DNA from: Candidatus Caccousia avistercoris
GTDB lineage: Bacteria; Bacillota; Clostridia; Oscillospirales; Acutalibacteraceae
DNA length: 32,313 nucleotides
Assembly (NCBI GenBank): GCA_018715025.1
Contig: DVMK01000218.1
Location: 1-32,313 of the forward strand
Direction of reading: 5' to 3'
Each line of letters starts with the position of its first letter. Positions within the stretch are counted from its first letter, which is position 1. This document shows positions 19,598-20,771 of the stretch, in pieces. The notes below the pieces were generated by a model. The model did not search any database. It had not been told where the DNA came from and worked only from the letters and a program-made list of their open reading frames with translations. Made by a program: the position numbers and the translations under genes.

Positions 19598-19876
19598 TTA
19601 TTCCTCCCCGCGCATTCTGGCGAAGCACTCGCTGCAGTACACCGGGCGGTCCTCCCTGGGCTGGAAGGGCACCCTGGCCTCTCTGCCGCAGTTGGCGCAC
19701 ACAGCGGTGTACATCTCCCTCTCCCCTTTTGCGGCGTTCCTGCGGGCGTCGCGGCAGGCCTTGCACCGCTGGGGCTCGTTCACAAAGCCCTTGGACGCGT
19801 AGAATTCCTGTTCGCCGGCGGTAAACACAAATTCCTGGCCGCATTCCTTACAGATGAGAGTCTTGTCCTCGTACAT
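19598..19876 (-). CDS. Small zinc-ribbon protein (zf-trcl / probable zinc-binding type)
   Basis: MYEDKTLICKECGQEFVFTAGEQEFYASKGFVNEPQRCKACRDARRN...YTAVCANCGREARVPFQPREDRPVYCSECFARMR. Confidence 0.88.
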   Translation of the reverse strand: MYEDKTLICKECGQEFVFTAGEQEFYASKGFVNEPQRCKACRDARRNAAKGEREMYTAVCANCGREARVPFQPREDRPVYCSECFARMRGEE

Positions 19877-19904
19877 GGATTCCTTACCTCGCTTCAAATG
19901 AAAT

Positions 19905-20041
19905 ATTTGCCCGTAGACGGATTCACACCGCCGCCTTTGAAAAACAACGCTCTATTGCTAAGCTACCGGGGCATGAACAGGGGTTTCCCCTCTCTGAACC
20001 GGCGGCGGTCAACATGCCTGCCGCCGCGTGCAAGTCCATCC
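19905..20041 (-). ncRNA. Structured RNA with tRNA-like D-arm and T-arm elements; raiA-motif-like candidate (class not confirmed)
   Basis: Has its own promoter; the 5' end coincides with a 13-nt strand (20028-20040) pairing 12/13 with 19916-19928. Also contains a 7-bp GC hairpin (20000-20026), AGGGG-AAA-CCCCT hairpin (19979-19991), GGUAGCUUAGCAAUAGAGC D-arm-like element, GGCGG-UGUGAAU-CCGUC T-arm-like element, and a potential GGCAUG/CAUGCC pseudoknot. No sizeable plausible ORF. Confidence 0.72.
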
Positions 20042-20043
20042 TT

Positions 20044-20072
20044 ATTATAGCAATAGAGCCATCAGAATTCAA
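20044..20072 (-). promoter_or_regulatory. Promoter of the structured RNA
   Basis: TTGAAT (20067-20072), 17-nt spacer, TATAAT (20044-20049) on the minus strand. Confidence 0.78.
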
Positions 20073-20114
20073 CCATTCTATAAAAAATATATCATTATTT
20101 CATAACATACAATA

Positions 20115-20139
20115 GAAAAGAGACCGCAAAGGAGCGGCC
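20115..20139 (-). terminator. Terminator of the sigma-factor gene
   Basis: Minus strand GGCCGCTCCTTTGCGGTC hairpin followed by TCTTTTCT. Confidence 0.6.
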
Positions 20140-20142
20140 CCC

Positions 20143-20742
20143 CTATTCCAAAGGGAACAGCTTTTTCAGCTTGGCCCTGGCCCGCTGCACCGCGTTGCCC
20201 ACCGCCTTTTCGGTGGTGCGCAGCCGCTTGGCCGCCTCGCCGTAGCTGCAGCCCTGAAGCCGCAGAAACAGCACCTCACGCTCCAGCCGGGAAAGAGAGC
20301 TGCTGATCTTCTGCAGAAGCATCCCATAGGATTCGCTGTCCGCCAGAAGCGCCTGGGGATCCGCGCTGGGATCGGCCGGAAGCTCCAGCGCGCCCTGGCC
20401 GCTGTTCAGGGAAAGGTGGGCGGCCTCCCCGCCGCTTTGGCGCTGGGCCCGGCGCACCGCGGTAATCATCCGGTTGCGGATGCACACGTCGGCGTATGTT
20501 TTGAACGAAGCCTTCCGCCCCGGCTGGTAAAACCTGGCCGCCGAAAGAAGCCCCAGCATTCCTTCCTGGGACAAATCCTCGTTGTCGAGCCCCTGCCCCT
20601 GGAAGCGGACGGCCTTGGCCCGGATGAAGGAAACATACCGTTCCGCCAGCTGCCAAAAGGCGTTGGGGTCCCCCGCCTGCACCTGCAGGCAAAGCTCCCC
20701 GTCTGTCAAAGCGGGGGACTCCGCTCTCTCGTCGTCCGGCAC
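20143..20742 (-). CDS. sigH: Sigma-70 family RNA polymerase sigma factor, SigH-like
   Basis: FIRAKAVRFQGQGLDNEDLSQEGMLGLLSAARFYQPGRKASFKTYADVCIRNRMITAVRRAQRQ...LSRLEREVLFLRLQGCSYGEAAKRL resembles SigH regions 2 and 4. Start ambiguous (GTG 20742 or 20751). Confidence 0.82.
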   Translation of the reverse strand: MPDDERAESPALTDGELCLQVQAGDPNAFWQLAERYVSFIRAKAVRFQGQGLDNEDLSQEGMLGLLSAARFYQPGRKASFKTYADVCIRNRMITAVRRAQRQSGGEAAHLSLNSGQGALELPADPSADPQALLADSESYGMLLQKISSSLSRLEREVLFLRLQGCSYGEAAKRLRTTEKAVGNAVQRARAKLKKLFPLE

Positions 20743-20771
20743 TGGCCTCACCTCCCCTGTTTCTTGCTTTT

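Follow-up and report, generated by a model that had tools for sequence, protein, structure and literature searches.

What kind of RNA lies in front of the zinc-finger gene zf_Tbcl of Candidatus Caccousia avistercoris? The window, that is, the whole stretch of 32,313 nt analysed here (contig DVMK01000218.1), carries this gene on the minus strand, and an original prediction made from the letters alone had placed before it a promoter-driven RNA of about 140 nt with tRNA-like arms, further helices and a pseudoknot, for which the raiA motif was the first comparison. Our analysis confirmed that a structured, tRNA-like RNA that is not a tRNA lies in the 5' untranslated region of the gene and that no terminator precedes the ATG. 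This RNA is real, yet it is smaller than first claimed and of another kind, tRNA-like and not raiA. The element at 19907-19975 of the minus strand is very probably a conserved, tRNA-derived leader of zf_Tbcl, shared by many bacteria of the gut and of other anaerobic habitats. The features of the locus are listed in Table 1.

Conservation is confined to a short element

Relatives were searched in 58 related genomes and in 80 genome contigs encoding the downstream protein. The matches span only about 19905-19974, with 95-97% identity in the nearest genomes and an element identity of 75-97% across the relatives, and the flanks are unconserved; no counterpart of the 67 nt lying 5' of the matched part in the window was detected in these 58 genomes and 80 contigs. 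The element is 69 nt long in the window and 62-95 nt elsewhere. Because the matches in relatives cover just this part, the GC hairpin, the 13-nt outer helix and the pseudoknot of GGCAUG with CAUGCC are peculiar to the window genome, and the promoter seems to be so as well.

The promoter was present as described, and the features from which the 140-nt promoter-proximal architecture had been assembled can be read in the sequence, but that architecture is unconserved and nearly all relatives have no separate promoter. The 13-nt strand can indeed pair with 19916-19928; this helix is restricted to the window genome and conflicts with conserved strands. Likewise, the GC hairpin and AGGGG-AAA-CCCCT exist in the sequence but have no counterpart in relatives. 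The genome-specific helices compete with the 3' strand of the T-arm and the 5' strand of the acceptor stem, and the pseudoknot, being both genome-specific and in competition with conserved strands, was given up. The suggested alternative pairing of GUAG with CUAC did not hold either: its UAG is invariant and the partner reads CUAU, CUAA or CGCA elsewhere. Compared with shuffled sequences, the 142-nt fold showed only a modest excess (z -1.74, 10/200).

In contrast to the relatives, the window genome has zf_Tbcl uncoupled from sigH, by the terminator-like hairpin after sigH and by the new promoter. A stable hairpin just 5' of the element was seen in about a third of the loci (34% with z<-1.5 vs 2% with z>1.5). 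As a candidate conserved feature it was set aside and regarded as optional, having no conserved sequence.

Table 1. Features of the zf_Tbcl locus in the window (positions of the whole stretch)
Feature	Position	Strand	Evidence or remark
Conserved leader element, very probably tRNA-derived	19907..19975	-	R1 81.1 bits, Rfam tRNA 29.2 bits; tRNA core 19908-19972
Acceptor stem, 5' strand UGCCC (partner 19908-19912)	19969..19973	-	5/5 pairs compensatory, 98 sequences
D-arm GCUU...GAGC	19949..19963	-	97.7% of cells paired, almost invariant; U8, A14, A21 equivalents kept
Remnant anticodon arm UUG-UUUUU-CAA, without anticodon loop	19937..19947	-	3/3 pairs compensatory
T-arm GGCGG-UGUGAAU-CCGUC, 7-nt T-loop	19916..19932	-	4/5 pairs compensatory; U54, R57, A58 kept
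Acceptor stem, 3' strand GGGCA, then AAU, no CCA	19908..19912	-	sequence
Extended Shine-Dalgarno AAGCGAGG (AAG-N-GAGG), conserved	19887..19894	-	seen also without tRNA-like element
zf_Tbcl, 92 aa, PF13451 + PF23477, TIGR04272 CxxC-x17-CxxC	19598..19876	-	domain matches
Sigma-70-family factor, SigH-like, upstream	20143..20751	-	adjoins element in nearly all relatives
Terminator-like hairpin after sigH, in window genome	20117..20144	-	sequence
Promoter-like TTGAAT-17-TATAAT, apparently peculiar to window genome	20044..20072	-	10/12 matches, extended TG
Genome-specific 5' leader, unconserved	19976..20041	-	no counterpart in relatives
GC hairpin of the 5' leader	20000-20026	-	
AGGGG-AAA-CCCCT of the 5' leader	19979-19991	-	
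13-nt strand of the 5' leader	20028-20040	-	

The element matches the tRNA model and not raiA

The Rfam scan that the original prediction had proposed returned tRNA as the sole family in the window, scarcely above the gathering threshold of 29 bits, and when the thresholds were relaxed (E<=10, 19850-20130) tRNA was again the only one. Copies in relatives scored 29-49 bits with the same model. Neither the yjdF model nor the T-box model of Rfam matched the element at E<=10. We concluded that the element is a new RNA family, absent from Rfam as a family of its own; it is undescribed in the literature searched, subscription papers lying outside that search.

ARAGORN called zero tRNAs in the window. 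At two other loci it labelled the leader element as tRNA-Leu(caa) (L129:1501-1574) and tRNA-???(attt) (L146:1501-1576); annotation pipelines may therefore list such elements as tRNAs, and we would warn that they may be found annotated as tRNAs or pseudo-tRNAs.

The comparison with raiA failed at this locus. Within 19850-20130 the raiA model (RF03072) found nothing at E<=10, and its best score in the genome, elsewhere, was 10.9 bits against a gathering threshold of 101.3. The chance that the element is a divergent raiA (ModT) RNA is next to nil. The downstream gene is the same as that of true raiA RNA in other Clostridia, but the element shares its sequence with tRNA-Thr and forms a 68-position cloverleaf against the 209 positions of the raiA model; a raiA RNA of about 210 nt has helices P1-P8 and two pseudoknots, and the conserved element is a cloverleaf of 62-95 nt. 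Moreover, raiA RNA is absent from the 12 Oscillospirales genomes of the class sample.

Covariation supports a cloverleaf with the tertiary core of a tRNA

Two alignments were used together with R1, a covariance model with the cloverleaf: A1, a MAFFT alignment of 49 elements, and A3, the 101 matches (98 distinct) gathered with R1, which is thus fitted to the model. In A3, 95.5% of the cells are paired and double (compensatory) changes occur at 13 of the 17 cloverleaf pairs; none of 500 shuffles reached the observed pairing values, and controls with a slid structure were far lower. The un-fitted A1 showed the same trend with fewer sequences. We ranked the column pairs of the whole alignment with a home-made, tree-preserving covariation test modelled on R-scape. 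The top three belong to the acceptor, anticodon and T stems, with the anticodon-arm pair second; the E-values of this phylogeny-aware test are weak (best 0.4, the others above) and the ranking is striking. Fifth in the ranking comes the elbow between D-loop and T-loop (columns 29:109, tRNA 19:56), which 67 of 95 sequences form, mostly as G-C or A-U; in 2000 shuffles the mean was 54.6 and the maximum 64.

Of the sequences having a letter there, over 90% keep the equivalents of U8, A14, A21, U54, R57, A58, Y60 and C61; U8, A14, U54 and A58 are almost invariant, T-loop U54 and A58 being kept in 96 of 96. The tertiary contacts expected of a tRNA core (U8-A14, U54-A58 and the 19:56 elbow) are all found, and the conserved residues of the element are the tertiary core of tRNA. 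The tRNA-like D-arm and T-arm and the acceptor pairing noticed at the outset are therefore present and conserved. The anticodon stem had been called poor; it is short, yet it covaries. When the window element was folded as a single sequence, the full cloverleaf was not the minimum-energy structure.

The other parts depart from tRNA. In relatives the anticodon arm is a 3-bp covarying stem whose loop may have any length, so that the arm is very variable in length, with no 5-bp stem, 7-nt loop or anticodon. The acceptor is not a full 7-bp stem, 5:68 and 6:67 being often unpaired, and neither a CCA nor a clean 3' end follows the discriminator, GGGCA-AAU running on into the leader. Judged from its sequence, the element cannot act as an ordinary tRNA, because it has lost its anticodon and CCA end together with part of the acceptor stem. 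In this it is like the tRNA-Other of Bacillus cereus, a pseudo-tRNA gene beside a genomic island (PMC3399842), which is also tRNA-like and unused in translation; tRNA-Other is, however, a separate gene and the element a conserved mRNA leader.

Five loci (L063, L075, L084, L095, L112) carry eroded elements that keep the acceptor and the T-arm and have a shortened D-arm, which suggests a stepwise reduction of the cloverleaf.

A functionless degenerate tRNA pseudogene, one of the outcomes that would have undone the prediction, is very improbable. A score just at the cut-off of the Rfam tRNA model, the missing anticodon and CCA, and eroded versions such as L063, L075 and L112 would fit it, but the element has been kept in place across the order and in other families, its stems show compensatory changes and its elbow covaries.

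One element is linked to one gene

In all, 245 genomes of the order were searched with R1, and matches of at least 45 bits were considered, of which 60 of 78 were evaluable by position. Of these 60, 58 lie 100-500 nt upstream of a zf_Tbcl_2 domain on the same strand (Oscillospirales); one of the two exceptions (G067) also adjoins zf_Tbcl, but the contig end cuts its locus (L123). Matches with lower scores and a length of 76-78 nt are for the most part ordinary tRNAs. The element is thus linked to zf_Tbcl, one element to one gene. Some zf_Tbcl genes of the Oscillospirales have no recognisable element, and a second zf_Tbcl gene in the window genome (G000:C195:7246-7356, L227) likewise has no recognisable tRNA-like leader.

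The gene order in Oscillospirales is sigH followed by zf_Tbcl, with DUF1858 after zf_Tbcl in the window. In nearly all relatives the element has no separate promoter and lies between sigH and zf_Tbcl, usually starting 0-40 nt past the sigH stop codon and in some cases overlapping it. The AAG-N-GAGG extended Shine-Dalgarno precedes zf_Tbcl throughout the class (L168-L263), with or without the tRNA-like element. Further clade-specific leaders are found before zf_Tbcl at other loci (L185/L194/L206/L219/L230; L172/L177/L178; L171/L174; L179/L183/L184/L187; L181/L190; L229/L233), and those of L171/L174 resemble strongly eroded tRNA-like elements.

Such a position could be that of a processing signal (tRNA punctuation), at which RNase P and/or RNase Z would cut, separating the sigH mRNA from that of zf_Tbcl and determining for each mRNA its 5' end and its stability. 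Besides the location, mostly 0-40 nt past the sigH stop, an ancestral transcript of the order sigH - tRNA-Gly - tRNA-like - zf_Tbcl would necessarily have required processing. We nevertheless consider this explanation unlikely, since mismatches at 5:68 and 6:67 commonly interrupt the acceptor, the CCA is absent, and the window genome keeps the element despite its own promoter and the sigH terminator. In addition, the D/anticodon core is the most conserved part, and RNase P is not known to need this core.

Most likely origin from a tRNA-Thr(GGU)

Which tRNA gave rise to the element? In f47, another clostridial family, with the order yacP - sigH - tRNA-Gly - element - zf_Tbcl, the elements are closer to tRNA, having the T-loop UUCAAGU and a D-loop GG, and of six copies, four are found about 5-10 nt behind a tRNA-Gly(CCC). 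In further families tRNA-Gly(CCC) is also found 5' of a more eroded element or leader, and in other genomes an ordinary tRNA-Thr(GGU) stands behind tRNA-Gly(CCC). When elements were compared with 30 tRNA species, tRNA-Thr(GGU) was the best match for 13 of 16, with the qualification that it had more copies than the others. The complete genome G449 has a full tRNA set in addition to the element, which scores lowest among its 70 matches to the tRNA model.

From the f47 position behind tRNA-Gly(CCC), the best matches to tRNA-Thr(GGU) and the tRNA-Gly/tRNA-Thr pairs elsewhere, we infer that the leader most likely arose from a spare tRNA-Thr(GGU) that was situated between sigH and zf_Tbcl, 3' of tRNA-Gly(CCC). 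The element resembles functional tRNA-Thr(GGU) in the sequence of its acceptor, D-arm and T-arm, in its core residues and in occupying the slot behind tRNA-Gly(CCC); it differs in lacking the anticodon arm of 5 bp and 7 nt and the CCA, in its acceptor mismatches and in being joined to an mRNA leader.

Possible modes of action

The yjdF riboswitch is a homolog of tRNA-Lys whose folded state activates translation, and tRNAs grafted into leaders raise translation 2- to 6.3-fold (PMC9142559). Both yjdF and the element are tRNA-homologous cloverleaves before the Shine-Dalgarno of a protein gene, with the elbow kept and no CCA; unlike yjdF, the element is tRNA-Thr(GGU)-like, linked to zf_Tbcl only and mostly inside the sigH operon. 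It probably has a part in the translational control of zf_Tbcl, and by analogy a cis translation element resembling yjdF is its likeliest function. We propose that a tRNA copy was retained as an intercistronic mRNA leader in which, by covariation and the conserved core residues, cloverleaf and elbow are kept. Upstream of the zf_Tbcl Shine-Dalgarno (element end to GAGG, median 18 nt), the folded element may, as we tentatively suggest, act in cis on translation initiation and so permit ribosomes to initiate at zf_Tbcl, the second cistron of the sigH mRNA. The full explanation, a tRNA-Thr(GGU)-derived intercistronic leader acting in cis on zf_Tbcl translation, is our best one, at a little under an even chance.

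In the OFF state of yjdF the T-arm/loop pairs with the Shine-Dalgarno, whereas the element shows no such pairing. Since pairing between element and Shine-Dalgarno was no better than chance (own -8.2 vs mismatched -8.4 kcal/mol) and no convincing covariation of the element with the Shine-Dalgarno column was found, a yjdF-like OFF state is unsupported. Also rejected was a switch based on pairing of AAGCGAGG with the D-arm (GCUU) or with the anticodon strand (GCGUUG), because AAGYGAGG is kept without the element, convincing covariation was not seen and there was no excess pairing energy. A small-molecule riboswitch on a tRNA scaffold, as in yjdF, which binds azaaromatic ligands and activates translation, is accordingly quite improbable: yjdF is the closest known relative in design and the compact core is highly conserved in a 5' UTR position, but a single regulated gene is seen and no competing Shine-Dalgarno pairing.

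Alternatively, the element could be a protein operator, bound by zf_Tbcl itself, with its two treble-clef fingers, or by another protein that binds tRNA, for instance an aminoacyl-tRNA synthetase or a modification enzyme, and repressing or activating zf_Tbcl. AlphaFold2 modelled zf_Tbcl with high confidence as two zinc-finger modules (pLDDT 90.5). In other Clostridia the gene adjoins hpf, a gene of ribosome hibernation, and an RNA- or ribosome-binding role is therefore plausible; the pairing of one element with one gene, and a D-stem and anticodon-stem core less variable than in ordinary tRNAs, also agree with an operator. On the other hand, the anticodon loop varies freely in length and sequence, contrary to what an anticodon-reading synthetase would need, and a search of the PDB with the zf_Tbcl model returned nothing at E<=0.001, hence no RNA-binding protein. 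We regard an operator as rather unlikely. The thrS operator of E. coli is a precedent, in which tRNA mimicry in a 5' leader controls a synthetase gene. Operators of this type share with the element the tRNA mimicry in a 5' leader and possible autoregulation; thrS, however, mimics the anticodon arm, which is the variable part of the element, and the gene of the element is no synthetase.

Given a position and fold like those of yjdF without its OFF switch, we infer a preference for a constitutive or protein-modulated cis translation element, followed by the protein operator and then the processing signal.

raiA RNA precedes the same gene in other Clostridia

The raiA comparison was productive all the same. 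True raiA RNA (RF03072, 160-187 bits) stands directly 5' of zf_Tbcl in many other Clostridia (L170, L186, L196, L199, L208, L222, L231, L237, L252), in the order comFC - raiA RNA - zf_Tbcl - hpf, and 20 of the 24 genomes having both carry it directly upstream of zf_Tbcl on the same strand. The published synteny of raiA/ModT names the comFC and raiA genes and makes no mention of the zinc gene zf_Tbcl, and ModT is a highly abundant, trans-acting RNA (PMC11706538). The raiA/ModT RNA thus occupies in these Clostridia the slot of the element, to which it is unrelated in sequence and size.

The two RNAs might be alternative partners of one zinc protein in a ribosome-hibernation/transition-phase circuit, the tRNA-like one reporting the translational state to zf_Tbcl; this reading is improbable as it stands. 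Translational state would here mean the availability of the ribosome or of a tRNA-binding factor, and each lineage may have placed a different structured RNA before zf_Tbcl.

Taken together, the locus carries a tRNA-derived mRNA leader that is conserved order-wide and has a predicted function. It looks like a second, independent conversion of a tRNA into an mRNA leader, the steps of which are visible in living genomes, from the tRNA-Gly/tRNA-Thr pair through a near-tRNA leader to a leader without anticodon. It also connects zf_Tbcl, an uncharacterised zinc protein, with sigH on the one hand and with raiA RNA and ribosome hibernation on the other, and this connection offers a fresh handle on the function of raiA/ModT.
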